64,000 nucleotides of DNA from the NCBI GenBank assembly GCA_034670405.1, contig JAXDDX010000033.1, forward strand, positions 4,056,501-4,120,500. The letters run 5' to 3'. Position 1 is the stretch's first letter. Each line of letters begins with the position of its first letter. A model generated the notes under the pieces. That model saw only the letters and a list, made by a program, of their open reading frames with translations. It did no database searches and was not told where the DNA came from. Made by a program: the position numbers and the translations under genes. The DNA comes from Hoplostethus atlanticus (lineage: Eukaryota > Chordata > Actinopteri > Trachichthyiformes > Trachichthyidae). Below, piece after piece: positions 800 through 37,400 of this stretch.

Positions 800-3700
800 A
801 GACTTTAAGCTCATCAGGGTAATCAGAGCCTAGTGTGTCAGGTGGCGTTTTTAGCCTCGTCTACTGTGCTGTTGTTATGAAAGTTTACAGGCACCTATTG
901 GGTTAACTGGACTGTTGTTGTTGAGAATTAGCCACCTTTCTTTGGCTTGGTTGACATTTGAGATTGTGCCGTTTTATGAGATTACTGCGTAGAGGTATTG
1001 AAGCTGGGAATTTTAAAAAGGGAAGTCCATGTCTTGTTAGAGCGTGACAGGTTTCACTGAAATACTAGTCAGCATTGTCAACATGCATAACATGACAGGC
1101 TGCCCCACCTCTCCATGTTATCTGTAAAATGTCATACACAGTATGGCCTTAGCTGTGACTGCAAACTTGAATTAGGGCTTGAATTATGGCCTGGCTGGGA
1201 AAATTCAGACAGGGAAAGTAAAATGGTCACCGCTACCTCAACAGACTGAGCAAGGGACCTAATAGCTGAACAACAAAAAAGAGCATGCAGACTTAGTCAA
1301 TCTCCCCTGGATAAATAAAGGCTGTAAATAAACTGTAATCCATTACTCTGTAACCCTGACTCTCAGATAGGTGGTACGGGGAATAACAGAAAGCCTGAGC
1401 CTAAATATCTGTCTCAAAGCATTATGTATAGCACTTTAAGCCCTGCCACCCATGGCCAGGTGTATCACTGAGGGTTGTACCAGGAATCTGGCATGCTGTT
1501 GGCCGGCAGAGCAGGAAGAGCTTAACCTGTTGAAGGTCTGTTGTCTGACTGATATGGCGTATTGAGGGACTGGTTTCCTCCATCCTGGTAGTTTTGGTGC
1601 TCTTCCGTAGAGTGTTGGAGGGTTTCATAGCCCACCCCCACTCCCCGCTAATTGCTTTGGGATGGCCCTCAACGTGGCGAGCCCTCCACATGAACGCACA
1701 AACGGAGGCGAAGTGGATAGGGTGAGGGCTTACCACTGATTGGCTGGCACTTGTGTAATAGTCTCAGGTAGCTGACCGCATGTCATGCTATTCTCAGCTG
1801 TTTTCCTTCTAGCTTTTTCACCTAGGATTGCACAACACAGGCCTGGGTAAAGCTCTGAACCTGAACGCCCCCCAAACCCTAAGCATGGTCAACTAAGACA
1901 TTGACAACGTTTACATACACCCCAATAATTCAATCTTAACCTGATTTAGGCATTAATCTGACTGAATTTGACTCTTTATCTCAATATCTTAATTGAAGTA
2001 AGCATGACCCAGTTAACACACCTAGATTTCTGCTCTTTTGATTTATTAGGGCATGTCAACACCTCAGTCTGATGTCTTTTTCAAACTGTGCATGTCAATC
2101 ATCAGACGCAGTAACTCACAAGTTGTATTACAAGATGGTGCACTGCAGGGAAGTGGTGAGCAGTAGCTAGACGATGATTAAATTAATCCATGTAAACCGG
2201 GTTATTACAGAACTGGCGAACATTGTAAACGTTATAATTTAAATATCGCCTTAAGCTGATGACTCCCAGTGATCTGGGGATTGGTGTGCATGAAAAGATA
2301 CTCATAGAGGGTGGGGTTGAAGATAAAGTCAGGGATATCAGGAGTTATTTGTTGGTATGCTGTTGGGAATTGTATATTTGGCCGAGGCAAGATTGTCTTG
2401 TCTCGGCAAGACACTGAAATACAATACACTAAGGCCGTCTGGAGGCCTCTTCTACAATACAATGCAGGCCGTTTGGTTGCCTTTAATCAATTGGAAATTA
2501 GCACAGGAGACATGGTGTTCACAGGTCTAGAGGAAGGTGAGACAGAACTACTTCCACTCTACTCAATTAACATAGGGATGACAGACAGAGGCTGAGGGGG
2601 ATGAAAGGGTCTATGTAAAATATCACATGAATATCTGTATAAAGGAACTGTATCTGCTTGGAGTTCTTTAGATTATCCTCGTAGGCAGAGATGCTGCCGG
2701 ATATTTCTCCCTTTCAGCGCTGAACTGTATTAAATACTCATTGAATCCTGAGACGTAGTTTGTTGCTGCTTTCTTCTTACGTTCATCACCACAACCAAGA
2801 AATAATTCCTAACAATGCAAAGGAACCTGTACTGCGACAAAGACAAAGGAATAAAATAAATCACAATTTTGAACCAGAATTCCCTCCGTACATCTGACTT
2901 TTCTTTACAATGTGCATTGTACCAATGTACAACGCTGTGAACCTGAGACCTTACACACTATTAAACTTCACCCACAGAAATGTAGGTCATCCAACTGACA
3001 GAGTGGATGCAGATCAGAGACCAACCTGCTCCGGAGGCAGAAATAATCCCATTGGTTGATTTAAACCTCAGTGGGTGAAGCCAAAGGATCAAATCAAAGG
3101 ATGTACCAGCGTGCTCGGTCTGATGGGAGTCACAGAACTCAAACAAACATGGAGGAAAGCTTGGTATCAGCCATGTTGAGTTTAGCTTTCACGTTGAATG
3201 CTGAACTGCATGTTTCTCCCAAGGACAGGTGACAGGTGAATTCACTGTCACTATCAACCAACTATCTAACAACAAACATTTCGATATTTTGACACTCCAT
3301 TAACAACCCAGAGTTTGGAAAACTCAAGCAGAGCATGAAAATGTGAATGCAGCATTAGAAAAAGTGAAAAAGACAAGAGAGGAGGTTACTAATATTATAG
3401 CGCGCTTGTTACTAACTGGAAAAATACAATCTAACCATATTAAATTGTGCATTCACGGACTGGTGGGAAGGTCCGACATCTGGGACTTTCACGTCAGCTG
3501 CTGAACAACGTTGCATTCACTTGCTATTTTGTCAGCAAACCCAACCCAGAGGAAAAATTATAAACAAACATGGAGGCTGCAGTTTAACAAGCTAAAAGTA
3601 AAGCTAATTTCAACAAATGTTAGTTATGATTCAGCCTGGCTAACTATAAACATATAATAAAGGTTGGTAAAGGCAGGAGGTGTAATGTGAAGGCATCTGA

Positions 3701-4054
3701 CTTCATTACCTAAAACATTTTCTCCCACATGTCAAATAGGTTAATGTATTTTATTGTGTTGCCTTCAAATATATATTCAATAAATATATATTATAGCTAT
3801 GATAGTAGTTCAAAAACATGACTTTATTTTAAAAGATTCTTTATTGTGATGGCACTCCATCTCTGATCTCTTCTGTATATTGAAGAATACAATTATTTTG
3901 TTAAAGTATACTTTAACATGACATACGATTAGATTAGCTTGAAAAGATTAGCTTTAAGGTACATCATAAAATAACCAGTGGATACAAACATAACATTTTC
4001 TTACCACAACAATTCATTACATTAAATTACATTACATTGCACACCAAATCATTC
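337..4054. other. Intergenic DNA between the partial gene and gprc6a
   Basis: This holds the presumed 5' UTR and promoter of the left gene and the 3' flank of gprc6a. Apart from a CA microsatellite I see no convincing gene. A short stretch at about 1905-2215 begins and ends with similar GTTTACAT-type motifs in inverted orientation and may be a decayed DNA transposon, but the match is poor. Open frames here (for example 2311-2595 on the plus strand) show no family resemblance. Confidence 0.5.
759..797. repeat. (AC)n microsatellite
   Basis: About 19 uninterrupted AC dinucleotides. Confidence 0.95.
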
Positions 4055-5193
4055 TTAGCAGGACATACTTCTAAGTCTCTTTCTAACCTGTGTGCCTGGG
4101 GTCACAGGTGGACAGGCATTAATCGTCTCATTGGACATGGGTAATATGACTACTTTTGAACCAGTAGTGCTAGCATGGCCCCGTGTGCATGAACCTATAA
4201 TATTGCATTGGGAAAGCGTTGGAACTCGTGGGATTATTCTCAGGATATCAGAGTTCACCTCAGGGCCTCTGTCTGACTCTGGGTCTGAATCAGGACAGTG
4301 CCACCTCCTTAGGATCCCCTCCAGTGTATCAGTTGACCCCCAACATGCTTCATAGCATTTGGGTAAGAAATGGCAGAAGATTATGCCGTAGCTGGATATT
4401 AAAATGGCTGAAGCCTGCACAGGGGAGCCCTCTCCTGTCTTGATGATATAGATTGGGACAAAACTCACCCACACAAAGAGGTACATTAGCATGCTGAAAA
4501 TGATGCAGCCTGTTTCACAGAACTCCTGAGGAACCTTCCTGCATTTGAAGGCCAAGAGGAAACCAACCAAAGCCAGCACAGCTATGTAGCTCAACATAAT
4601 GCCGAAACCTATGTATTTAGGACCCTCATTACATTGGAGTATTCTCGTCATGCTTTGTGCGGATGGAGAAGTGTCATCAATAACAGGGGAATCAAAGATC
4701 AGCCAGAGAATACAGATGATCCCCTGGAGAACAGTTAGGACAGTGACAATTACAGGTGGCTTGTAAAGTTTGTGTAGCCGTCTGTGTCTTTGCGCACCAA
4801 AGGGAATAAAAACCAGAAATATACGGTAGGCCTTGACTAGGATGCAAGAAACACACAGGGTGAAGCCCATGGCATACATGACCTGCCGGGCTCGACACAG
4901 GTGTACATTGGGCTTGCCTATGAAGCATATCACACTTGCAAAGCTCACTGCTAGACCAGCCATCATCACACAGGACAATTTCACTTCGGCTCTTCTCATG
5001 GGCTGGGATTCTCTGTACACCAAAAAGATAACAAAGATAAACACCAACAGCAAGATGCCGAGGGCTGCAGATGCCACCAGAGAGATGGGATGAGCAGCGC
5101 TCCACTTCAGGTAGGATAACTCTCTTGGCCTGCAATGATCCCAACCCTTGAGGGAGTGTGTTCCATTGGGACACTTTTTACAGTCATGAAGAT
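4055..5193 (-). CDS. gprc6a: gprc6a exon 6: last cysteines, seven transmembrane helices and cytoplasmic tail
   Basis: The acceptor CTATAG at 5194-5195 precedes LHDCKKCPNGTHSLKGWDHC. Seven hydrophobic segments follow, with RQVMYAMGFTLCVSCIL in helix 3, CILWLIFDSP in helix 4, VSFVPIYII in helix 6 and SSYGIIFCHFLPKCY in helix 7. The tail is about 100 residues, Ser/Pro-rich with basic clusters, ending KRLRSMSC before a TAA at 4055-4057. Human GPRC6A ends in a similar basic KRMSSI. No internal stop or shift is seen. Confidence 0.92.
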
Positions 5194-8100
5194 CTATAGA
5201 AAGACAAGATGACATTTTCATATTAAAGGAAGATCCATTCTGGTCTACTTTATTATAAAGTTTATTTTTTTAATTTTCTTGTTTTGTCACAGTGCAACTG
5301 CAGATCAAATATCAAGGCCTAACCGTAACCACCAAGAAGCATGCATCATGCATCATCAAGTAGACGCCAGTATTGGCCATAGGGAATTTAAGGTGCACAT
5401 TGAGCTGCAATTGTTGTATGAAGTGTGCTATATTAATACATTTGATTGATTGATTGATTGATTGATACATAAATCTAGTTTTTAACTAAGTAATATTTGT
5501 CTTTGGTTTCAGATTATCATTTTCCAGCACACACATTGACATTCCGCTTTTTCCTTCCATGAATGCAAAAAGGTGAAATTACTTCTTCCTTGATTTCATA
5601 TGATTTTTAAACTTACAGAAGCAAAATGAGAGCAATGAGAGCACGTAAGGGACATCGTACTGCAGGTAGTTGAGGAAGCAAGAATCGATGAATCCAAAGA
5701 ACACCCATTATTCCAAAGGACTCATCAATTCAGCTTGTTGTAAATACTAAATAACATTGTTCAGATTGAATTTTGGTCTGTGCAAAACAAAGACGACTTT
5801 AGGACTCATAATTTCGACAACGCATGCAGACTGGGGGAAATGTCTCAATTTTACAGTGAACTGGTCTTATATTTAGCGGCAAACAAAGGACAAATGGAAT
5901 AGAAAAGGAATATTTCAGTCAGGCATACCCCTGGCATCTGAAAAGGTCCCCTCCGAACATAAGGTGCAGTTGTAACAGCAGGACACTGTAGAGATCTTCT
6001 TAAACGAGCCTTTTTCACAGGACTCTGAGCATTTAGACTGAGGAATCTGAGAGAGTAAACCAGACAAACATAACCTGACGTTCATCATTCAATATCTCTA
6101 CAGTACAGAACACCCATTATTTCAAAGTGTTAACATTTTGTCAATCAAGAACTTATGTTTTTTTTTTTTTTTAAAGCACCATCATTTGTTTCTATTGTGC
6201 GCTATTAATTACTTTGTAAGAGTAGGCGTTACTTTTTTCAAATGGTGGATATCCCAGTTTGGCATGAAACTTGCAGTGAACACTTTGTACAGTGGGATGG
6301 CAAACAAGGATGTGGGTTGTATTGATCCACCCCTCCCTCTTACCGTGTTATTGGCTGTTGAAAGCCAATTGAATTCGCTCACATCTGCATCAAACTCGAT
6401 GTTTCCATCTGAGACACGGTATCTTCCCTTTACTTTGAAGCTTCGGTGGTGTCCATCCTTTTCCCACATTATCAGATCATAACCACTGACAAAATCACCT
6501 TTTTTGTTGAAAGAAAAGGTCTGGCTGTCAAGCTTGAAACAAACCTTCTTCAGTTCCTCAAGAAGCTGCAAGATAAACAGCAAGGTTTGAATTGAAAATG
6601 GCCTGGTCAGAGAATATGAATGAATAGTCTAAGGTAGGCACTAGTACATCTATGGACTGGGCACTGTGCCTTTGACCCTTGCACTCCTTTATATTGGTTG
6701 CTTGTTATGTTGATGATCGAGGAATTATGTATTATGATGTACAATGTAAATGTTTGAGTCTGTTTATTTCTGCTCAAATGCTTTATGTCAATTCTTACCT
6801 TCCATGGTGGGAAGTTAGTCTCTCCTAAACACAAGGAGTTGTTACACTGAAGTAGTTTTTTGAGAGCATTAGCTATTGCCCACATAGCCACTGTCCCACC
6901 GTAGCCTTCACTTGTGTCCACAGCCGTCAAAAGGTAGTCGTCATTGGCCTCTTGCGGATCTGTGTAATCGCACGCATTGACAGATTTAATTTTCAGGAGA
7001 TCAGATTTGGGACAGTAGGATGGAGGCTCCTGTGAAAAACACTCTGGCGTGCAGTTGAATCTCAGGTTCTTGTACTTTTCAATGAAGCGGTTGTATCCAC
7101 CAGGGCTTGGTCTCAGATTCTTCAGGTAATTATCAAATGATTCACTCTTGCGTGAAATGAAAGTGAAGCCAAAGATGTCGCCCACTGCATTGATGCCATC
7201 CAGATGGGCCAAGGGCCGGTTCATGGACCAGGCATCGCTGGCGATCCAGGTTCTTGTTGTGTTGGTCAGGATCATCTCCTTGAAGAGGTCCTCCACCAGA
7301 ACCCCCTTGAGGATGAGCAGTACAACCTGGGCCTTGGAGGAGCGGATCTGCTGGGCGACCTGCTTCATGCGCAGGTTGCTGTGATGCTGCTCGTGATCTA
7401 GGTAGTGGGGCACCACCTCCTGGTAGGCCAGGCACACATTCATTTCCTCAGCGTCCTGCAGGAAGCTCTGGAAAGCCGCTTTGCCATAGTCATCATCCCC
7501 ATACACAACCCCCACCCAGTTCCAGCCAAAGTGTGCCATAAATTTGGACAGTGCCTTGGTCTGATGCACATCACTGGGGATGGTCCGCAAGACACCTGGG
7601 TAGCGCACCTTATCACTCAGTGCGGGTGACGATGATGTGCTGGTCAGCTGATAATAAAATAACACAAGGAATGACAATGAATAAAATGTACACATAAAAG
7701 AAATTAAATGTAGATATACAAGAAATTAAACAGTTTTTTATTTAAGATTTTTAATCTCAGTAGGACTAGGTGGATAGATTTAAAATGTTTAACAAATGCA
7801 GTAACCATCACAGTCCACCAAAACTATTTCATCATCTCATCAGAACCGGTTTCCTCAGGAAAACTATAAAGCACCATGATATATTTGACTTAATTTCAAT
7901 GCATCATTGAGAACATAAATTCGCTTGACAGCTTACAGTCAAATTGAATTCTTTATCAGAAAGTGTTAATCAGTTTGTGACTTACTTGAGGGATCATATA
8001 CACACTGAGCAGCTTGGCAATAGCGATAGGACACCTCAGAGAAGTGTGCTCCCATGAAAACCTTGACTGGTGACCTGAAGTCAGTGTAGTTACACTGCAC

Positions 8101-11100
8101 ATGTAGAGAGCTGTTGACTGCAAGCATTTTCTCCACACTCTGCAAGGCTTTGGTTGCATCAGAGCATGTATCACACAGCATATATCCAAGACGCACTCCT
8201 GGGAGGAAACCAGCTGCATTTATGTTCTCGATCGTGTGGATGACAGCCAAGGTACGCACGAATGGCACCAAATCAAAACTGGAAACAGACAGTTATCTTA
8301 GTATTGTATTCAAATGCTCCTGTCTTCCAGGGAGGATATTCCAATCTACATAACGCTAATGCTGTAGAAAAAACAAATAGCTACACCTATAAACTAAAAG
8401 CTTACATGGTCATTTACGTGGTCAGTGAGTTCCTGACCATTTGGCATTAGACACCAGCTAAAACCCTATTGTATCGTTTCAAGAAAATATGCTTTCTTTT
8501 CATCACTGAAAAAGTTGCTTTGATTATTTTTTTTTGCATGACAGCAATATAATACTAGAAATGCATTTCCCGCGGAAAATGTGTGGGATTGCTGTACAGG
8601 CAAACCGCAAAGTATGTACATGTGCTAGCTTAAAGGGATATAAAGGTGGTTGCTAGGGTGTCCTAGGTGGTTGCTAGGGTGTTTCTAGCTGGTTGCTAGG
8701 GTGTCCTAGGCCATTGCTAGGGTGTCCTGGGCCGTTGCTAGGGTGTTGCTAGGGTGTCCTAGGCCGTTGCTAGGGTGTCTTGGGCCATTGCTAGGGTGTT
8801 GCTAGGGTGTTGCTAGGGTGTCCTGGGCCGTTGCTAGGGTGTTGCTAGGGTGTCCTAGACCGTTGCTAGGACCAAAATGACCACCTGGATCCAAAATGGC
8901 GGCATTTGTAGTAGTACTAGTAGTAGTACTTGAAAGTTGTATGAAGTTGAATGTAGTTGCATTACAAATACATTGAGGTCTATGTGATTGCTAAGGTGTT
9001 CTAGCTGCATCCAAAATGGCCACCTGGATCCACAATGGCGGCATTTGTAGTAGTACTAGTCATAGTAGTAGAAAGCTGAATAAAGTTGTATGCAGTTGCT
9101 TTACAAATACATTGATGTCTATGTGATTGCTAAGATGTACTAGCTGGATCCAAAATGGTGGCCTGGATCCAAAATGGCGGCATCTGTAGTAGTACTAGTA
9201 GTAGTACTTGAAAGTTGAATGAAGTTGAATGCAGTTGCATTACAAATACATTGTTGTCTATGTGATTGCTAACATAGACACATATACGTAGACGCTGCAT
9301 TGGCCTGTGGATCGTACGTAAACGTCGCCGCCATATTGGTCCGGGCAAGACTGGCCTGTAAACAAATACAAGTAAACGGGGAGCTGCGGTTTTTCTGGAT
9401 GAAAAGCACTATAACGTTTACATTTCTCAACCGATTTCAATGAGTCCTTTTTATATTCAAGGGTTTATGATCTATGTGGAGTAGGGAACAAAAGTTTTGT
9501 CTCCAGTTACTTAGAATCTCGATAGTTAGGCTATAATTGCTGTGTATCAACTCTTTCTCTTTGGGAAACCTTCAGAGTGTGAGAAAAGTTAGCTAGCCAG
9601 CTAACTACAGTCAGATTCATAATATGTCAGCTGCTTAGCCGAAACGAGTAGCTTGTCATAAAAATCGGTTTAGAGAAATATAGATCTATATAAATATAGA
9701 TGAAAATCTCGATTATAGGCCATTTGAATTTTCCCTCTTTATTTCCCCTCTGGGGATCAATAAAAGCATATCTTATCTTATAATTGTCTGTCTTGGAGTA
9801 TATCTGTATCCTTTCACTGCTATAAAAATATAGAAAGCAGACTGACTGCCAGTGTCTCACTATTTTAACTTGTATTTGCCAATTTTGTTCCATTTTTCCA
9901 ATTATTAGTACTTAAAAATGTGCTATTTAGATTTTTTTTTTCAGTATTTCAAAGTGAATGAGCTGTGTTCTGACCTGGAGCACAAGAAAAGCTAAAATGA
10001 TGGGGACATGGACAGAAAAAGACATTTCCACAATGTAAAAAAACCTTCTGCACATTTCATGTACATTAAATTATATTATATAGGGACGTCTCCACAAGTA
10101 TTGACCAAGGAAAATAAGCCGAATCCTGCTTGACAAACCTGAGTTTTTACAATGCCTTATGACAATGAATTATTTTCCACCACGTAAGTAATTCAGTTCA
10201 TGTAAGCCTATCGTTGATACACACTGCGTGAACTCTCTTGAACTTTTTTTTCTACTCCACGTAGATCATAAACCCTTGAATATAAAAACGACTCGTTGAA
10301 ATCGGTTGAGAAATGTAAACGTTATAGTGCTTTTTATCCAGAAAAACCGCAGCTCCCCGTTTGCTTGTATTTGTTTACAAGCCAGTCTTACCCGGTCCAA
10401 TATTGTAGTAACGGGCCGAAGCAGTCAATGCGGCGTCTACGTATATATGTCTATGATTGCTAAGGTGTACTAGCTGGATTTAAAATGAATGTTGAATGAA
10501 GTTGAATGCAGTTGCATTACAAATACATTGAAGTCTATGAGAGTTCAAAATACATTGAAGTCTATGGAGTGGGATTGCCGAGTCAGCAAAACACAAAATA
10601 CTTAATAATTCCTAAAGTACTACTAGTATCTCTTAGAAAAGACACAGCACACTTCTACACATAATTCTGGACAGTTTGACATATGACACGTGCATGTAGC
10701 TCGAAAACTGCGGGACATGATACACTTCAACCGCGTTTTTAGAAAAACGTGTTTATCTCCGATAACTCGTGAATCGTGCGAATTTCTGCATTCGTTACTA
10801 ATTTCCACACCCCGTCGCATAATTCCGCACATTTCGATACCTGAACCACGTATGTGGCACAAGCAGTTTTCGCACTACAGGTGAGCAACAAAAAAAACCG
10901 CACAGAAGTGGAATAATAAACCTGCAAAATTACAATAGTGGGATTGCTGACTCAGCAGCAGCAATCCCACTAAAAATTCTCTAGCAGTGATGACATACAA
11001 TGCAATTACAACATGACACAAGCATAAATACACTCTCACGCAGTAAATTCATCACTTCTTTCTCACTCTGTACAGGTGAAGGGGTCAGGTCGTGTCCGTT

Positions 11101-11320: not shown

Positions 11321-12351
11321 TGGGAGGCGCCCAAGATCACGTGATACGTGAGAAAAAACCTGTTAAGCAGAACTAAAAGAAGCTACGTGTCTCCGGCCTC
11401 ACTTCCTCTTCTTAAACTGGGTTTTGGCAGAAGTGGTGAAAACAATATAAGGAATATAACAGATTGTTACAGATTGTTGTTGTTGCAGCTTACTCTGACT
11501 CTTTGGTCAAGGATGTGTCATTGACGGTTTTGCATGATCATGAAACTGATGTTTTTCAGTGGTTCCTAAAGTGGGAGGGCATACCCAATAAAAATACAAT
11601 TAGTTCAATTTCACTGTTGGGTCATTCCTTAACATAAATGTTAACATTTTTTAATTCCAAATAGATTTTCATACACGGTTAGTCCATATTTATCATAGAA
11701 AAACAATTCTAAATACCCCACAATGGATTTTTTCAACATGTTAGAACATCAACATGCTGAAAGGTTTCCTCCAGTGTACAATTTCCTCAAGCAATGATAA
11801 AATATGTTCTAGCTAAATAGGATTGAAAGACAAATTCCTCTTCCAGTCATTGCATTGACCTAACTCGACAATAACCCAGTTTCCTAACAGAAAACGTGAT
11901 TAGAAATGTACTGAATAATATTAAATCATATTAAACTAAACATACAAAATGCTAAATGCTAAAAAGAAACAAAATATTAAATAAAATCCCCCAGATAAAT
12001 AAATGTAGAATCAGGAAAAAATCAGGAATTTCGTCAGGAAGATCCCTTGCATGAGAGCAAATGATTTTACCTTAAGCATGTGGAGAGGCACGTTTGACAG
12101 GTAATAGATGACAGGTTTGCTAACAAGGTATTTCACCTGCATACACTGACATATTTCTGCACTGATTTTATACAGATCATCACACTGAACAATCTGCCAA
12201 GCATATCTAAAATAAGCAGCAATGAACGATGTTTCTCATGTCTGATTTTTATATTTCTATATTTTGTGAAATGGTTGAATTCATATTTTGGGAGTTGTCT
12301 TCCGAAATACTGAATGACACCATTTTAGGAAATATCATGGACAGTGGAGTC
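11321..12351. other. 5' flank of gprc6a
   Basis: AT-rich DNA presumed to hold the gprc6a promoter and 5' UTR. I see no additional gene and no clear core-promoter motif that I would assign. Confidence 0.4.
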
Positions 12352-12365
12352 GGGTCCTACTAATC

Positions 12366-12662
12366 ACCCCAAAGTACCCCAAAATACCCCAAAGTACCCC
12401 AAAGTATATCCCAAAATACCCCAAAGTACCCCAAAGTACCCAGAAGTATACCCCAAAATACCACAAAGTACCCCAAAATACCCCAAAGTACCCCAACGTA
12501 CGCCAAAATACCTCAAAGTACCCCAAAATACCCCAAAGTACCCCAAAGTATACCCCAAAACACCCCAAAGTACCCCAAAGTATATCCCCAAACACCCCAA
12601 AATACCCCAAAATACCCCAAAGTATACCCCAAAGTACCCCAATGTACCCCAATGTACCCCAA
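12366..12662 (+). repeat. Left arm: CCCCAAAGTA / CCCCAAAATA decamer array
   Basis: About 29 near-identical 10-base units, some lengthened to TATACCCC variants. Confidence 0.95.
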
Positions 12663-12684
12663 AGGGCAGGCAGAGCAAAGAACT

Positions 12685-13850
12685 AATCCAGGGCAGAGGT
12701 GCCTAAGTGTGGACAGGCGGGTGAGTGTGAGGGGCCTGGCGGCCTGGAAGTCACAGAAAAGAACAAAAAAGAGACAAAGTCAGTCATAGATTACCAGGAC
12801 CACGAAGCGTATGCTGGGTGACCATGACCACGAAGTTCATTAAGGAAGACCAGGACTACGAAGTTCATTTTGGAATACCAGGACCACGAAGTTCTGTGGC
12901 TGGCGGTTGCCTGTGTTGACCCAGGGTGGGGTGCTTAAGACTGGGTAAGCAGGTGAGTGTGGTGCGCCGGGTGTTGTGGAGCCCCGGAGGCCAGGGCAGA
13001 GAAGGTAATGTAGTAACCCAGGGCAGAGGTGCTTAAGTGTGGGGAGGCTGGTGAGTGTGGAGGCCTGGTGGACATGGGGAGGGCCATGTCATGCAGAGAC
13101 CCAGGGCAGAGCTGCCTAAGTGTGGGCAGACAGGTCAGTGTGTGGCCAAAACATAAGAAAAGGCAAAATAAGCCCGAAAAGTAGCCAGAGGTGAGTCTGG
13201 GTGACCCCTGGAGGTCTGGGGGCCTGGTGGCCATGGGGAAACCATGCAATGCGCACACCCAGGGCAGGGGTGCTTGGCTGTGGGGAGGCTGGTGAGTGTT
13301 GAGGCCCCTGGAGGTCTGGGGCCCTGGTGGTCATGGCTGGGACCATGCAACGCGCACACACCCAGGGCAGGGCTGCTTAGCTGAGGGCAGACAGGCCAGT
13401 GTGTGGCAAAAACATAACAAAAGGCGAAAATGAGGCAATAAAGTAGCCAGAGGTCAGTGTGTGACCCCTGGAGGTCTGGGGGCCTGGTGGCCATGGGGAA
13501 ACCATGCAATGTACACACCCAGGACAGTGGTGCTTGGCTGTGGGGAGCGGGCTGAGTCTGGAGGCCCCTGGAGGTCTGGAGGTCTGGGGGCCTGGGGGGC
13601 CCATGGGGGACCATGTCCTGTACAGAGCCAGGTCAGAGCTGCTTGCCTGTGGGCAGAGAGGTCAGTGTGTGGGGAAAAAGGTAAAAAAAAGGCCCAAAAG
13701 TAGCCAGAGTGAGTGTGGAGGCCCCTGGAGGCCCCTGGGGGCCTGGGGGACATGGGGGGACCAAGCAATGCACACACCCAGGCGAGAGGTGCTTGGCTGC
13801 GGGGAGCCGGGTGAGTCTGGAGGCCCCTGGAGGTCTGGGGCCTCCAGGCT
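12685..13850 (+). repeat. GC-rich higher-order tandem repeat, ~260-bp period
   Basis: CCCAGGGCAG-type unit starts recur at about 13018, 13258, 13518 and 13779, and a second variant at about 13101, 13361 and 13626. Two sub-units thus alternate with a combined period of about 240-265 bases. At the left (about 12795-12895) lies a smaller repeat of GACCACGAAGTTC every 35-40 bases. Confidence 0.8.
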
Positions 13851-13854
13851 TTGG

Positions 13855-14050
13855 GGGGCTTTGGGGTATTTTGGGGAACTTTGGGGTACTTTGGGGTATT
13901 TTGGGCTATACTTTGGGGTACTTTGGGGTGTTTTGGGGTATTTTGGGGTACTTTGGGGAACTTTGGGGTACTTTGGGGTATTTTGGGCTATACTTTGGGG
14001 TACTTTGGGGTGTTTTGGGGTATTTTGGGGTACTTTGGGGTACTTTGGGG
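13855..14050 (+). repeat. Right arm: TTTGGGGTAC / TTTTGGGGTA decamer array
   Basis: About 18 units, inverse of the left arm. An ~85-base block within it is itself duplicated (about 13870-13955 and 13960-14040). Many closely spaced GGGG runs give strong G-quadruplex potential on the plus strand. Confidence 0.95.
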
Positions 14051-14105
14051 TGATTAGTAGGACCCATTATTTTTTCTTGTCTCAACTCTCTACACTTTTA
14101 TCTAC

Positions 14106-18480: not shown

Positions 18481-18961
18481 TAGTCTATAGTGATATCAGC
18501 TCTCAGTCATGACACATTTAGACGACAAAAATAGCGATGTGATGAATGGTACGTAAAGTAGGCCACTTGATAAGGCCATCCATAAATAATTGAAATACAT
18601 GCTGCAATTATCTAGTAATCAGGTCTCCTGTCCTGATTTCCACAGTAGCCTACAGATCTCCAGTAGCCAAGCTCTTGTCAAAAATGTAGAAAAAATAAAT
18701 AATTGCCAGGAAAACATAGAAGCTGCATGTGCAAATCTCATCCATAAGAATTAGATAAATTGTTGTTGTGTGCCTAGGTCAGAGAATTGGCTTTTAAAGG
18801 TCCCATGTTACTCCATTTTTATGATTTTGTTTTCAAATCTACTATGGCTCGGGGTAAGAATCATGCTCTTCATGATGTTTTACAAATAGATTTAGTGAAA
18901 AGTTTCAGCTGAATTAGTTAATTGAATGAATTTGAAGACTGAGTTCTCTCAGCCAGAACAG

Positions 18962-18998
18962 TCTTTGTCTTTCTTTCTTTCTTTCTTTCTTTCTTTCC
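18962..18998. repeat. (CTTT)n microsatellite
   Basis: About eight CTTT units. Confidence 0.9.
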
Positions 18999-20564
18999 AC
19001 ACAGATGCAATGATACTTCCTACACATGACCCATACGTCTGTGTGACAGTGACTAGTCTAGTACCAAATTTAGTAAACCCATGCTCTACATAAATTCTTA
19101 TAAAAGTGAAGAAAATGACTGGGCTATGTTCTCTGTGTGTCATAAGCATTGTGCAGTAATCGTCCTCAATCACACGGGGGCATTAGTGATCTACTGTATG
19201 TGGGCTCTTCTGCAGACTTCCTCTGAGCAAGAGGAAACACAGTGGCAAATGCATGAATTTATTCTAAAGATATCACAGTTTCAATATCTCACTGCATTTC
19301 TCCTATGTACATGTCACAACGCTCCTTCAGGACAGGCTCATATGACTTTAGATTACTGTGTACTTTTTTGATTCAGCAAAGATGCAGGATGATAAATACT
19401 CTTATCATGCAAGAAATCCTTTTTGGAGAAAGAAAGGAAAGGAGACTGTGCTAAACTGCAACAAAGCCTGAACAATTTGCCTGAACAGAATTATCATCTC
19501 TCCCACTGCACACAAATGCAGCACTGCCAGCACTGCTATGTGAGCACAGTGTAGCCGAGTACAAGGCCTCACTGCAATGGCTGCATCGCCGCAGGCATTC
19601 CCCACGGCTCTGGAGCACTCATAGCTCCCCTTAGGTTTTCATGTTTTAGTCATCATGGCTACATGCATCAGACCAGCATCCCAGGCAATTCCCTAATAAC
19701 CCTGGAAGTGCAGTCCCACAACACACTGATCCAGTAACTTATGCACATATTTTTTGGAGTTATCATGGTAATAATTCAGAGTGAAAATTCAGAGTCAATT
19801 CTGGAACACCTTCTGTGTGCATTTTCAGAGGAGTGCAGTCTGTCATTTTCCTCCACTATTAACCGGAGTGGCTTGTTCTGGTTGAGGATTTTAAAAAGCC
19901 TATCCTGCTGATCCCTGATCAAGCCCTCGCCTGAGTTCTCGTTCCTGAGAAATTGGCAGAAATTGGGCTCTTACATTTATTTATTTATGTGCATTGCTAG
20001 TATGAAACCGTTGGTATGAAAACATGAAAAAATTGCATGGCTGCCATTCCATGTAGACCCACACCTGTAGTAATGGCTGCAGTGGTGTAGTGGGGGGAAT
20101 AGGGGTACTGACAACCAAGGGCCCCTAAAGTATCCGGACTAAAATGCCTTTTTTTGTTTGTTTGTTTTTTTTGGAAAATACAAAAATGCAAACAAAGTTT
20201 TCTCAAAAATGGTGGTGAAAGTTTGGTTATGACAGCCAATTAGCACTGTCATGGCAGCATCTCAAACCCATCCTCTAAGCTGGGGATGTGTTTGATAGTT
20301 GATCAGTAAATGCATGTGTGGAGGCGTGTTTGAGTCGTGGATGGGTAGAAATGGATGTTTGTCATAGATGGAGTAATGGAGGTGGGGCCCAGAGTCACCT
20401 CCTGTCTCCCATAATTCCTTGCTACACCCCTGAGTAATGACAATCAGTAATGGAAGTGTTTGAAAGAGTCATGGTGCCATACCCTCTTGCCTTACAAGCA
20501 CTTTGTGTTTGATTGTTAAAGTGGCTTAGCTGTCTCACCCAAAGCTTTGCTTTTCCTTTGCACC

Positions 20565-20935
20565 GCGTTGGGAAGGTAACTTTCAGAATGTAATCCATTA
20601 CAGATTACTGCCTTCATGCTTCAAAATTGTAATCAGTAACACAATCCAGTGGAGTACTCTCACTAAATCAACCAGCCTTTGGGTCCAGTGGTGTTAGTAG
20701 AAGCCTGTGGTTGTAATGAAGCTCCCGGGTGAAAACGTGTGATGAAACTAGAGTGTGAAAGTGCATAGTGGATAAATAAAACTTTAACTTATTGCTATTT
20801 ACAGTCATGTGAAGTGTGTCGTGTATTATCGTAAATCAACCAGGATCAACCGTTATTTTGAAATGTGGAAAATGAAGTGTTTGAGTTTGAGTGACAGGAA
20901 TCCATTTACTGTAATCTGATCAGTGTAATCCAGAA
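20565..20935. mobile_element. Possible decayed DNA transposon
   Basis: GTTGGGAAGGTAACTTTCAG, ATGTAATCCATTACAGATTA and GTAATCAGTAACAC at the left resemble a widespread fish repeat that starts this way. GTAATCTGATCAGTGTAAT near 20915 could be its other end. The class is not certain. Confidence 0.35.
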
Positions 20936-21477
20936 CACGCCCAAGCCCCGCCTAGTCACAGCATTCCTCATACAGTACCGATACCTTCTGCCGTATCGTC
21001 TACTCTTAGCTTCTAGAGGTTTTACTTCATTTGTTCTCATACCGTGTTTTTACACCACAGCGTGTTGTGGATATTAAATATATCTCTCTCTGATGGATCA
21101 ACTGTCACGACTAGTAAAGACGCCTTTGATTACAGCTGTGTCCCTGAGTGCTCCGATCTCACAGGCCGGCTGAAGCCTTTTGATTTCATTCATATTTGGG
21201 TGGTCAGCGATGGACTTGAGCCACGGTCGCCTCCCCGTTATCCGGGGTAATTGCAGTATTCTATTCTAACCGATTGAATTAAATGTCAGAATGACCCGTC
21301 TCAAGAAGCACTTTGGCCCGCTTTGAAATATAATACGAACGCCACGTATCTGTACGGGGGTCCTCGTTTCTTTGCAAAGCTTTTTCATCTAATTGACGCT
21401 GTGGCCGGCGCCTCCTGCTGCCGAGAGTTCACGGTTGTGGTGAAGGGCTGACAGGAGCGGCGTTTGGGTGTGTCTAC

Positions 21478-21662
21478 TGGCGTTAGACCGATATATACCG
21501 GGCCGATATCTGCCAGTCACTGTTGTTCATATGACGGAGATGAGAATCTGTTTTTTACGTGACAGCCTCAGGGGCGTCGGCACGATCAGCCTTTGGAAGC
21601 TTCAATCCAAACATATTGGTATCGGTTCGACCTTCAGAAAACCCACGTGGGTCGAACCCTAG
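21478..21662. mobile_element. Short copy of dispersed family A with both ends
   Basis: It begins GGCGTTAGACCGATAT and ends GGGTCGAACCCTAG, an inverted relation typical of a small hAT-like derivative. Confidence 0.5.
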
Positions 21663-21770
21663 TGTTGACATGAACAGGAGTATTCAGGATACTGATATCC
21701 TGGTTAAGGTCACGTGTGGAATGATATTTTTACATGCATCTTCATATTCTGATCACAAATATCCCTGTAG

Positions 21771-22085
21771 GAAATCCATTATTGCCCATTTATTTAGGAA
21801 AAAAAGTCTTAATAGTAAATTTGTGAGGAGGCCTGACATGTTGGTGATGTCATCTGATTTCCTGAGGTGAATTAAGCCCTCCTTACTCAAACATCGCACC
21901 CTTGGAGAGTCTCATGGCTCACAGGACTAGGGGTCATCAGAGGGCTCTCAGACGGGTCACACCTCTGAGTTAAATGTGATTTGTGTGATGAATTGGCATC
22001 CCGGCATCATGTGTTCATGCCTAAATCGCTGTCTGCCTGAAATGGGCTTTTCAAAGACGTCGGGTCATTTTGGGCTGTACACCAT
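21771..22085 (+). repeat. Local direct duplication, copy 1
   Basis: Nearly identical to 23842-24140 over about 250 bases from CTGACATGTTG to GGGCTGTACACCAT. This copy has about 32 extra bases near 21790-21825. Confidence 0.9.
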
Positions 22086-22502
22086 CGACAATGGAGGAAA
22101 ACAGTAAGAAATGAAAAAACAGCGAAGCTAAACGTGCAGACAAGACCTGTTCACAAATATCCCTGCATGTCTGAATGGACTGAATACACTGGATATTACC
22201 AGCAGTAAATGGTGAACCGCTGTTTGCATGCCTCAGTATCCCTGCTATCCCAATGGAGTTTCTCACAATCCGGATATGAATTCATCCCGGCCATCATAAA
22301 GCAGGATGTAAAAATGTGTGTCAGCTCACCAACTCTTCCACCGTTGGACACTCGCACACTGTTAGACATTAACAATTCTTTGGTGAATCCACTTTCCCTC
22401 AACAAGCGCTATCCTAGTGATTTGCCTACATTTCCCAGAATGCCCTGCGACAACCCCCCATAGAAGGGGACGGGGTGACTTTGTGCTGTACATGTGTAGG
22501 TG

Positions 22503-22529
22503 GAGAGAGAGAGAGAGAGAGAGAGAGAG
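22503..22529. repeat. (GA)n microsatellite
   Basis: About 13 GA units. Confidence 0.95.
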
Positions 22530-23841
22530 CGGTAGCGATGGTGTAGTAAGTTTCTTCCAGTCAAGAAAAAGTGGAGTGAATTCTGTGGTGTTAAAATGAC
22601 AAAAAAAAACCTGTTGAAGAGGGTGTTGTATTTCACACGCTACCAATGACAGATCTGCAGAGATGCAAGCTGTGGCGTTGCATTCTGGTCCATTGAGGCT
22701 ACTGTCGGGGGAGAAATTGGTCTCCTCTCCTCCGATGGATTTCTCCCTGTATGATTGTTGATCGTCGGTCTAGAAAGAAGCCCTTGTTCTTTGATTCTGA
22801 TTGGCTGTCACCAAAACCTGACAATTACCGATGATGTTTTAGATCGCTGAAACATTTTCTGCTATTAAACTTCATTGTAGTTGCACTTGAAATTTCTCAA
22901 CGCGACGTCAATTCATATTTGCTCAGCCAATTATCCACGGGAACAAGAGAAATACACCACTGAACTAGATTTCTCCTTTAAGAAGCCCTATGTACCTATA
23001 GCCCCTCTCTGTCTCAGCACTCCCCATTACAGCCCCACAGAAACACACCACTGTGTATTTCCTTGCTGGCTGGATACTGGTAAACCCAGTACGGTGGCTA
23101 ACAAGACAGGGGAATCCAGATACTGGGTACCACATACTGTACTTCATGTTCTGATGCCTGACGGAAGAAAGGGGCTTTGGCAGGGGTGTCTGGCCAGCTG
23201 GCAGAGAGTTGGGTCGCATGCAGCCTGTGTTTTGTGTCCCACTGTATAGCTGCCATGTCTGAACACTTTGTAATACAGTGTCTGTATTGTCTGACATTTT
23301 CGGCCTCATTGTTACTGGATGGAAGGTGTTAAAAAGCTGAAAATGCAGAAAATCTACTCCTATATCCGCCATCTTTACATCATAAGGAAGGACACTATAT
23401 GTTTTCTTTCATGTGCATTCATGTGTTATTGTATTGTATGACAGACTATGCCCCCCCGCCCACCCCCAAGTCTGCCACATATTGACTGTAAGAATCCAAC
23501 ACATATGGATGGAGGTAGCTTGGGGGGAGCTGCCTTATCTTATTGTACTGTCACCTTATCAGAACCAAAAAAGTGAAATTAAAAAGGAGGAAACAAAGCG
23601 TTAATTTGAAAAAATAAAACTTTGTGCCTACTGTTACAAAATAATTGCTGGCATGAAAGTAAAGCAAAATGATGGTCATTAAGTTATCGGACGTATTAAG
23701 ACTTTCATCTGAGACTGAATCATCTGTTTTTGAAATATTGCCTGGTGAATTTTAAGTAGAAAAATTGTTCAAGGGCATACAGCATACATCAGCTTTTCAT
23801 ATATAATCACACTGATATACTATGGGCATCGTAGTAGCGAT

Positions 23842-24140
23842 TGAAATCCCTTCCATTATTGCCCAGTGAAGACGCCTGACATGTTGCTGATGTCATCTGA
23901 TTTCCTGAGGTGAATTAAGCCCTCCTTACTCAAACATCGCACCCTTGGAGAGTCTCAAGGCTCACAGGACTAGGGGTCATCAGAGGGCTCTCAGACGGGT
24001 CACACCTCTGAGTTAAATGTGATTTGTGTGATGAATTGGCATCCCGTGTCTGTCTGTGACCCCGTGTGTTCATGCCTAAATCGCTGTCTGCCTGAAATGG
24101 GCTTTTCAAAGACGTCGGGTAATTTTGGGCTGTACACCAT
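23842..24140 (+). repeat. Local direct duplication, copy 2
   Basis: Same sequence as 21771-22085 except scattered changes and an added TGTCTGTCTGTGACCCC near 24047-24063. Neither copy has recognisable ends or coding potential. Confidence 0.9.
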
Positions 24141-34400: not shown

Positions 34401-37400
34401 GGCCCTCCCCAAGGAGCTCAGGCTGGCAGAGTCACTGTTGTCTTTTAAATCACTTCTTAAGACCAATTTCTGAAGATGTTTCTTTATGTAATGATGTTTC
34501 TCATTCCACTATTGTTCCACCACTTCCATGTGTTGGTAAAGTCCCTCCTCAACACCGCAAACTACAGGAATAAACTGTGTCGCTGATGGGTGAGGGGGGG
34601 GGTTCACACATTAAAAGATTCTGCAGTTGGATTTGGTCGCGTGGGGTCTTAATACGCTGCTGTTGCACAAAAGCACATGTGACACACGTGACTTTGTTTT
34701 TCACATTGTGCTAATGGAACTTGAGAAGGAAGAGCAGCTGGTAGCACTTACAATGTGTGCACTCATTTGTGCCGAAAAAGAAAAAAGACGAGGCCTTGAC
34801 ACCGAATTTGGAGGAGAGAATGGTTGGGGAGACATGGGCAGCATGGGTTGTCTGTTCTGCAGAGTTGGAGGTAAATTATAAAGCCCAAATAAAAGAGCTA
34901 GTTATGGATGGTGCATTATTTGATGTTCATACTGTGTATTTACTACAGATATTTATATTTATATATTTATATTTACTACTACAGGTATATATGTTCCATA
35001 GAAAATCCTCTTTTCGACGCAAGCTCTCATTGGCTATTGCTGCCCACCATTCTCAAAACTTGTCTTAACATATCTCACACTACAAGAGCATTGCAGACAA
35101 AATCAAACATGTTTGAAAGCTCCAGATGTCTGAGAAGGAAAGACTGGGTCAGACTGCCTTTCTGGCCCATTCGAACAAGCAGGTCAACGAACGAACTGAA
35201 CACACCGAGTCGGCTCCGTCACGGGGATTTTGTCTGAGATCTCAAAAACGTATCTAGGGCATTGTGCCTAAAGTCGTGTATTGTGTGCCTGGCTTTACCC
35301 TGACCAGGGTCCATATCCCACCCCAACCTTATGGTTCTGCCTTTTGCCGTGATCCTCCTTGTCCTCTTGCTTGTCTTCATTGTGAAGCACTTTATACAGT
35401 GGAGGAAATAAGTATTTGATCCCCTGCTGATTTCGCAATTTTACCCACTTAGAAAGAAATGAGCTGTCTATAATTTTAATAGTAGGTCTATTTTAACAGT
35501 GAGAGATAGAATATCAACAAAAAAATTCAGAAAAACGCATTAAATAACAGTTATAAGTTGATTTGCATTTCATCGAGGGAAATAAGTATTTGACCCCCTA
35601 CTGACCAGCAATAATTCTGGCTCCCACAGACGGGTTATGTGCCCACGAGGCACACAGATTAGTCCTCTCGGCTTTCCTCTCGGCTTAAGAAAGTACTCCT
35701 AATCTCAACTGGTTACGTGTATGCACAAAACCTGTCCAAAGAATCAACTTCACCACCATGGGCAAGACCAAAGATCTGTCTAAGGACGTCAGGGACAAGA
35801 TTGTAGACCTGCACAAGGCTGGAATGGGCTACAAGACCATCGGCAAGCAGCTTGGTGAAAAGGAGACAACTGTTGGTGTGATTATTCGCAAATGGAAGAA
35901 AGACATTTCTAAAAAGCCACCTGCCATCTGGATGGATAATAATGTCTATTACAAGCTCTGTCGAATCAGTGTGTTGTATACTTTCACTCAACACATCTGT
36001 ACTGGAAAAGAATGTTGGCTATCAGATGAAAATGTATTAACCGGCAATGAATCCTGACAAGTACACAATGTAAAAAATATTAACAGCATGGAAATAATTA
36101 CATTGCTATTCGCTAGAGTCCCATATAATTAAGAAGTAATGAAGTGCAACAAAGAAGTGATGTAATCACAGAAAAACATTCTTGCTATGTTATTATCAGA
36201 GTAAAACAATAGGAAATAGACTTAATGATGAGGGGAAATACAGCGAGGGAAGGGTTGCTGTCCCCGAGGCTATGGCTCCAAATATCTTGCTTTGCATGGT
36301 TTTTTAGCAGAGTAACTGATTTAAATGGCATTAAGTAATTGGATTTTTTTCTGGCTGGTTTCACATTAGTTTTAGAGGCTCTACTGATAGAATACCAGCC
36401 TGATCTAATGCAGTCTCATCCCCATCAAATGCTGCTGGATTGACAGAACACCCGCCCACTGAGCTTAGGAATTCCCCTGGTTCAGGGCTACTGAACATAA
36501 TGGAGTCCAACACAACATGGTGCTTAGTGAAGGAGACGTCAGATGATGAAAAGGCGGTGCAGAAGGGAAGAGAGTTGTTTGCACCGCTGTTAAACAATTT
36601 GACGGACAATAGAGGCATTGGATGATGGATGGATCCCTGGAGCTCGCCAACATCGTTCCAAAGGGAGGCCTTGCTATGGGACTTGGTGAATAGTGCGTTC
36701 TGTAAACAGGCATCGTTCAGTTCTTCAACAAAATCCATCTGTCTTTGTTTAAGATCACAGCTGTTTCTCCACGACATGACTTTCTTTCATCTTTAGTGTA
36801 GAGCTTCTCATTCAAATACCATCACTCTATGACTCTTTACCATTCCTTTCCTTAATGGGTAATAGCACTACACAAATATTGAAAGAATATTGACATTGCA
36901 GTAATGACAACTGCAATTTCACAATTGTAAGAGGCGACAGTTTTTTTGTTTCTGACAGCTTCCTACACAACTTTTTTTGTGCTATGCAGAATCCCTGGTT
37001 GACAAATGAAGTTGCATGTTAGGAGAAAATCTTTCAGTGTAGTTGAACAGAGCAAATTCTAAGCATTAACTCAACCCACTCACACACCAACCCACATACA
37101 CTGATTTTTTTAGACATTTTGAGAAATCCTATTGAAAAAGCTACACCCACATGTACCACAATTCAAATTGAAATTGCGCATTCACACAGAATATATGTGT
37201 TCTTACCTGTAGATCAGAACCTCGTCATCAGAGCAGTTGTACTGGAGCTGGTACATCTTCACCTTGGGTGCCGACTTGCTCACTGACCACTCAACCAGCG
37301 CCGAAACGGCCGTCACCTCGGACACAGACACGGCCTTCTCCGGTTGGCTCTTGGGAGCCCCCTTGCTGATCCTGGTGGTGCCTGTGATGTCAGAGAGGCG

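Follow-up and report, generated by a model that had tools for sequence, protein, structure and literature searches.

A probable non-autonomous foldback-type MULE with decamer-array arms and a ribosomal-spacer-like core in Hoplostethus atlanticus

Foldback elements, in which long inverted ends made of short tandem repeats flank a variable middle, are already known, also within MULEs, and include FB, Galileo, and Tm1. The repeat units of Drosophila FB measure 10, 20, and 31 bp. The Daphnia DNA transposon Pokey is not known to have foldback arms, and some of its repeats derive from the rDNA spacer. Tm1, a Mutator/Foldback element of the nematode Meloidogyne, is described as a member of the MULE superfamily with fixed terminal motifs that precede ~14-bp tandem repeats in variable number, arms of asymmetric length, target duplications mostly of 8 to 10 bp, and non-coding members beside one member that encodes a Phantom-type transposase with a FLYWCH finger (PMC3169594). 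Rehavkus, a MULE outgroup from insects and annelids, combines long inverted ends, a MULE-related DDE domain, a PHD finger, a minisatellite before the 3' end, and a 9-bp duplication; the accessible text of the survey describing it mentions no OTU domain, reports no Rehavkus from vertebrates, and records some Phantom members without a FLYWCH zinc finger (PMC6446971). FB4 (NOF), with long ends and 9- to 10-bp duplications, has been placed with the MULEs and is able to carry host sequence, its cargo being the gene Ssk (PMC8277862). Galileo and Tetris, both from Drosophila, likewise have the foldback layout with tandem repeats in their ends; Galileo belongs to the P superfamily, and its repeats contain secondary binding sites for the transposase (THAP) (PMC3688188), while Tetris is described with a unit of ~220 bp and no known transposase, and its repeats seeded a satellite (PMC4079207). 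Pokey, a piggyBac element linked to rDNA, contains repeats in its 5' region, uses a TTAA target, and inserts in 28S (PMC12869080).

The presence of MULEs in vertebrates is contested. A 2019 survey did not confirm the transposases of the reported vertebrate elements, called the sequences mis-identified, and raised the question of a true absence of MULEs from vertebrates (PMC6446971), whereas a survey of four teleosts lists both MULE-MuDR and MULE-NOF (PMC4746887). Across 100 animal genomes MULEs were reported as rare (median of 0), with no Pack-MULE in the reference genomes and one Pack-MULE family found in fly populations (PMC8277862).

The window analyzed here, a 64,000-nucleotide stretch of the H. 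atlanticus genome, contains a 1,714-bp element at positions 12352 to 14065 (all window positions count from its first letter). As the first-pass annotation of the window had claimed, both ends consist of the exact 19-mer GGGTCCTACTAATCACCCC, which forms the left element end at 12352 to 12370 on the plus strand and recurs at 14047 to 14065 on the minus strand, and each end leads into an array of the same decamer in opposite orientation; the lengths it gave for these arrays, about 300 and 195 bases, were also right. No further copy of the 19-mer was present in the window with up to three mismatches allowed, and none was present in each of 100 shuffles. The left arm (12366 to 12664, plus strand) holds 28.9 units of ACCCCAAAGT with an 80% match, including some 12-bp units, and the right arm (13849 to 14051, minus strand) holds 19.9 units of the ACCCCAAAGT type with an 83% match. 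An 82-bp unit within the right arm, repeated 2.3 times at 98%, is a recent internal duplication. The longest ungapped pairing between the arms spans 172 to 176 nt at 75 to 84% complementarity. Between them lies a core of 60% GC (12665 to 13848, plus strand) that matches arrays which, on contig C645, follow 28S rRNA sequence. The separate satellite core described earlier was seen again as a 260-bp higher-order repeat (13092 to 13842, plus strand, 2.9 units); a 28-bp repeat, GACCAGGACCACGAAGTTCATTAAGGAA (12820 to 12894, plus strand, 2.7 units), had been overlooked. The window copy itself encodes no MULE transposase, and a scan of the window for known RNA families at gathering thresholds found none.

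This arrangement, in which short tandem repeats make up long inverted ends on either side of a variable middle, is that of foldback elements, and the earlier statement that no described family has this layout fails against Tm1, Tetris, and Galileo. The explanation that best accounts for the element, to which we assign a probability of roughly 0.76, is a non-autonomous, foldback-type, cut-and-paste MULE that carries a captured rDNA intergenic spacer, as a putative "Pack-MULE." Its family shares with Tm1 the superfamily, the fixed terminal motifs followed by variable arrays, the asymmetric arms, and the coexistence of coding and non-coding members; it differs in the sequence and length of the unit, in its 8-bp duplication, in its transposase, which shows a PHD finger and an OTU-like domain where that of Tm1 is Phantom-type with a FLYWCH finger, in its vertebrate host, and in its spacer-like core. 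With Rehavkus, compared by description, it has in common the PHD finger, the inverted ends with minisatellite, and the MULE-related DDE domain, and it differs in duplication length (8 instead of 9 bp) and, as far as that survey describes Rehavkus, in the OTU-like domain. FB/FB4, also compared by description, is alike in layout and differs in duplication length and in carrying a gene where the present element carries spacer-like cargo. Galileo and Tetris are alike in layout and unlike in superfamily and unit, and Pokey is alike in its rDNA connections and repeats and unlike in superfamily, target, and insertion site.

The family is dispersed. The exact 19-mer occurs 40 times in the 632.8-Mb assembly, so the ends are not confined to the window, and 34 of these copies form 17 inverted pairs spaced 0.8 to 7.1 kb apart, the remaining 6 being single. 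Allowing one or two mismatches added 11 copies genome-wide, compared with 5 for a reversed-pattern control. The exact ends mark 23 places, 5 of which are duplicates of another place, found on small contigs, leaving 18 distinct loci. A looser pattern for diverged ends, GGGTCCTACTAAT[TC][AG]CC with at most one mismatch, found 106 sites including the exact ones (control, 15); near-palindromic relatives of 73 to 102 bp occur at loci L038, L045, and L046.

Target duplications were sought by comparing the outer flanks at each length from 4 to 12 bp in the 15 distinct paired loci. The 8-bp flanks were identical at 8 of the 15 loci and in none of 210 cross-pairings, and mean identity over 8 bp was 0.75 for own pairs versus 0.27 for cross-pairs. 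Exact matches at other lengths were limited to one own pair (5 bp, L023) and one cross-pair (6 bp). Near-duplications were present at L024 (7 of 8 bases) and at L009 and L015 (6 of 8 each). Dispersal of the 19-mer in inverted pairs, together with the 8-bp duplications, identifies a mobile element, as the first-pass annotation had proposed. The length of 8 bp falls within the range used for MULEs (8 to 11 bp, mostly 9), and no duplication of 9 bp was found. Among the 15 paired loci compared, the 8-bp duplication is absent at L018, L020, L023, and the window copy, whose flanking octamers GTGGAGTC (12344 to 12351) and ATTATTTT (14066 to 14073) agree at 2 of 8 bases, a feature that the first-pass annotation had passed over. 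The window copy may have lost its duplication through recombination between copies or through deletion; its absence there, and the lack of a clear one in the three other pairs, count against the reading as a MULE with captured sequence.

Of the 18 exact-end loci, 14 carry core sequence, which has at least 235 matches in the genome, a count based on the 38 of 89 first-look candidates that were scored. The core is not a satellite specific to the element: it matches spacer-like arrays elsewhere, some of them long and situated on small contigs and others forming part of larger contigs (among them C117, C392, C471, C645, C653, C856, C1023, and C1027). The 28-bp motif GACCAGGACCACGAAGTTCATTAAGGAA is also present in one such array (L053), and the 260-bp period recurs in another (L060). 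On C645, a 28S rRNA sequence occupies positions 18925 to 22793 (Rfam RF02543, model positions 1 to 874 and 875 to 3401 in two adjoining pieces), and core-like repeats begin ~140 bp after it on the same strand and continue to about position 28118 (~5 kb), with best identities to the core of 90% over core positions 1 to 199, 77% over 127 to 903, and 95% over 574 to 764. Two other sources of the core were considered and rejected. Capture of a protein gene found no Pfam match in three core open reading frames (two inside the core and one running through the right arm), and derivation from the interior of an autonomous element found, by blastn against the interiors of L014 and L015, a best match of 19 bases (E value of 0.87).

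The boundaries between arm and core are shared among copies. The left junction, CCCCAA followed by AGGGCAGGCAGAGC, falls at the identical base in 10 of 14 distinct loci, the exceptions being L010 and L024, where the leftmost match lies within spacer-like sequence, and L011 and L012, which have no left match. The right junction, CTCCAGGC followed by TTTGGGG, falls at the identical base in 13 of 14 loci, with L023 as the exception. The best counterparts of the left junction in the arrays read GGTAACC followed by AGGGCAGGCAGAGC or GGTAGCC followed by AGGGTAGGCAGAGC; the arrays thus stay homologous beyond the point at which the elements switch to the decamer. Shared junctions fit one capture followed by amplification, and the simplest reading is that rDNA spacer was captured once and then spread through transposition. 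Both the junctions and the position of spacer-like sequence beside the C645 28S agree with what is expected of a Pack-MULE, in which MULE ends enclose captured host sequence with an identifiable parental copy, the 28S in question being degraded or error-rich. Trees of core segments did not recover a clean single origin: in the two segments examined the element copies did not form one clade, the label changed between element and array 2 times in one segment and 3 times in the other, and one array class grouped next to three of the element copies. The elements may therefore have exchanged sequence with the arrays afterwards, in both directions, captured spacer more than once, or donated sequence to the arrays. 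The trees, and the fact that the rDNA link comes from one contig, weigh against the reading of the core as captured spacer.

The same observations bear on the alternative that the arrays derive from the element, or that both share an independent satellite lying beside one 28S, so that the core is not captured rDNA spacer. In addition to the unclean segment trees, this alternative draws support from the rRNA search of 14 stretches from array contigs, in which C645 alone gave rRNA and the other 13 gave none, and from the condition of the C645 28S. That sequence (L062/L065) is full-length, with many single-base gaps in the first part of its alignment; three stretches that we presumed to be conserved in 28S were not intact in it, and its sarcin-ricin motif carries an inserted base. 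Either the assembly of C645 is error-rich, as it is for certain other small contigs, or C645 carries an rDNA pseudogene. The next best matches to a 1,295-base piece of this 28S were on C957 (84% over bases 686 to 1295) and C495 (74% over 35 to 1295), with shorter matches elsewhere in the genome. An origin of the arrays from the element is nevertheless opposed by the 14 stretches themselves, 11 of which hold core-like sequence and 6 of which are partly N: they contained no match to the decamer pattern and no element ends other than three-mismatch matches in L057, L060, and L061, which proved to belong to an unrelated ~1.2-kb repeat. It is opposed as well by the array homology that runs past the switch to the decamer and by the placement of the C645 arrays ~140 bp downstream of 28S over several kilobases. 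We regard this alternative as unlikely, though it is the best-surviving rival to a captured spacer. The unrelated ~1.2-kb repeat is a tandem unit near the core-like arrays of C856, C117, and C392, and a LINE 3' end (UnaL2) is present in the C645 stretch and in L053 (twice), L057, L058, L063, and L064.

Transposase-derived sequence gave nine matches at four genome loci, on contigs C62, C65, C1080, and C4, and all four have an end of the window element's family. The most complete is the 4,220-bp locus L014 (C62:1974645-1978864), which is flanked on both sides by a perfect 8-bp duplication, ACACTAAT. It encodes a PHD finger (PF00628, 1.6e-6), the finger that also characterizes Rehavkus, and has a match to an OTU-like domain just below the cut-off of 23.3 bits (22.6 bits, 1.6e-4); the same domain scores above it in L015 (24.6 bits, 4e-5). 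The OTU-like domain lies beside the PHD finger in a transposon open reading frame (L014:575-1303) and contains a DGNC motif, which we take to resemble the catalytic Cys of OTU proteases. The MULE domain match (PF10551) in L014 is borderline, at 27.9 bits against a cut-off of 27.6 (3.3e-6) and covering profile positions 53 to 99 of 99; in a second copy the score equals the cut-off at 27.6 bits. The third open reading frame of L014 includes D211, D288, and E408, presumably the catalytic residues, and a NNNCEAINH motif that in our judgment resembles the third catalytic block of MULEs. A search of PDB sequences found no relatives of the transposase, and none were confirmed in viral contigs.

The coding copies are similar to one another. 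The shared part of C62 and C1080 shows 4 differences in 1,161 bases, which indicates recent activity. The C65 copy, L015 (C65:16526-24257), contains a 1,761-amino-acid open reading frame (1151 to 6433) with four tandem transposase domains of ~410 amino acids, each differing from C62 at 16 to 19 of 1,210 bases (1.3 to 1.6%). A giant domesticated protein was considered for L015 and rejected: both Asp residues have been replaced in all four domains, and the changes relative to L014 (13 to 17 non-synonymous and 1 to 3 synonymous) are close to neutral. L015 is read as a dead, tandemly amplified transposase copy. C62 and C1080 each have an apparent frame break, and the N-terminal part is absent from the adjoining stretch of C1080 that was examined. 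Each of these three coding copies thus has at least one apparent lesion, and no intact working transposase was seen among them. The C4 remnant (L009), in which two arms enclose a coding element shortened by internal deletion, links the coding and non-coding members. The partial PF10551 match at the cut-off, the lack of a PDB relative, and the lesions count against the preferred reading.

Mobilization of the foldback element by a different superfamily, hAT or P, would be compatible with the borderline and partial MULE match, and 8 bp is the usual duplication length of both. No hAT or THAP-P transposase domain was found in the scanned open reading frames at an E value of ≤1, whereas the MULE profile scores above the cut-off in one copy and exactly at it in a second, and the NNNCEAINH motif, with its resemblance to the third MULE block, points the same way. 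MULE-type duplications of 8 to 10 bp are moreover on record for Tm1 (PMC3169594). A hAT or P origin is consequently improbable. Within the MULEs, the scanned open reading frames of L014, L015, and L049, for which the gene models are incomplete, gave no FLYWCH match at an E value of ≤1.

In 30 arms from 15 loci, a scan for the CAAA motif gave arm lengths of 86 to 469 bp and a motif spacing of 10 bp in 361 and 12 bp in 96 of 573 intervals. The decamer pattern had 175 matches in the genome and none for a reversed-pattern control; among the 100 of these matches that were listed, the array always lay at a locus with an exact or diverged end, so the idea that such arrays are common without ends found no support. 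In seven diverged relatives whose period was tested, 10 was the best lag in five (L039, L042, L043, L044, and L047) and not in L041 and L048. The period is thus conserved more than the sequence, which suggests, on the pattern of the repeats, that the arms may serve as a protein-binding array.

Homogenization of the left and right arms within a copy was unsupported, since the share of common 20-mers was 0.47 within elements and 0.48 between elements in 12 non-autonomous copies; an arm resembles its partner no more closely than it does the arms of other copies, and the arms seem to change independently. Five pairs of contigs that hold the same insertion allowed array lengths to be compared. C312 and C762 (L022/L025) differ by one 10-bp unit. 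The gaps measure 10, 10, 8, and 12 bp between C583 and C889 (L023/L050) and 57, 40, 12, 39, and 20 bp between C601 and C664 (L024/L028); C202/C914 (L021/L026) and C583/C622 (L023/L027) show only gaps of 1 to 5 bp, none of unit size. Several same-insertion contigs have many single-base gaps resembling sequencing error. The differences in length fit slippage or unequal exchange, in keeping with the expansion by slippage that the first-pass annotation had anticipated. The same annotation also proposed that the arms could form a cruciform.

The remaining alternative, that a local minisatellite was duplicated in inverted orientation and no mobile element is involved, could appeal to the missing target duplication of the window copy and to the other minisatellites of the region, and it is refuted for practical purposes by the 17 inverted pairs among 40 exact ends genome-wide, the 8-bp duplications, and the confinement of the listed decamer matches to loci with ends.

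For the preferred reading, a non-autonomous foldback MULE with captured spacer, the following mechanism can be proposed. A PHD-OTU-MULE transposase from relatives of the C62 locus would recognize the terminal 17 to 19 bp, may bind many CC(C/A)CAAA sites that recur in each arm at intervals of about one helical turn, and would then pair the ends and move the element. The window copy would depend on transposase supplied in trans. Arm length would drift by slippage or unequal exchange, with extra sites tolerated or possibly helpful. Gap repair, for example, could have placed at least ~1.2 kb of spacer between the arms of an ancestral copy, and most of the present copies may descend from that spacer-carrying version. 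A more ambitious version remains tentative, and we consider it more doubtful than not: that these elements form a recently active vertebrate PHD-OTU-MULE lineage in which helically phased decamers act as multivalent transposase-binding ends and in which one captured rDNA spacer unit, perhaps containing repeats of the Pol I enhancer type, brought success to the non-autonomous form, which dispersed ribosomal spacer across the genome and exchanged sequence with the rDNA.

What appears to be new is a vertebrate MULE with foldback architecture and spacer-like cargo, set apart from Rehavkus by description. Literature matches listed for a foldback MULE in fish or a MULE-captured rDNA spacer included, judged by title or opening of the abstract, no such report, which is weak evidence of novelty since Repbase and most subscription papers lay outside the search. 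The ends, the target duplications, and the near-identical coding copies together make the question of vertebrate MULEs directly testable. The arrays also lend themselves to asking if the transposase binds to the tandem repeats of foldback and Phantom ends, a role that was called untested in 2013 (PMC3688188). If the preferred reading is true, transposition of rDNA spacer would be an added route for the dispersal of spacer repeats; for the fish satellite As51, an origin from spacer has been proposed, in the text available without a transposon mechanism (PMC13170303).

Several other features were observed elsewhere in the window. A 160-nt inverted repeat (9333 to 9492 and 10244 to 10403) has arms that are 93% complementary and 751 nt apart, and a 139-bp satellite (8872 to 9288) lies beside it, with a partial extra unit at ~10438 to 10549; the inverted repeat may be a further inverted-repeat element that inserted into a minisatellite. 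Positions 8647 to 8870 contain a minisatellite of GTTGCTAGGGTGT-type units with nested periods of 21, 32, 43, 53, and 96. A direct duplication (21823 to 22085 and 23866 to 24140) is 98 to 99% identical over copies ~2.05 kb apart. A helix-turn-helix of the Sleeping Beauty transposase type (35689 to 36057; PF25787, 1.6e-23) marks a Tc1/mariner-type remnant. The window also encodes a class C receptor and a protein that matches LRFN5 (E value of 5e-155).
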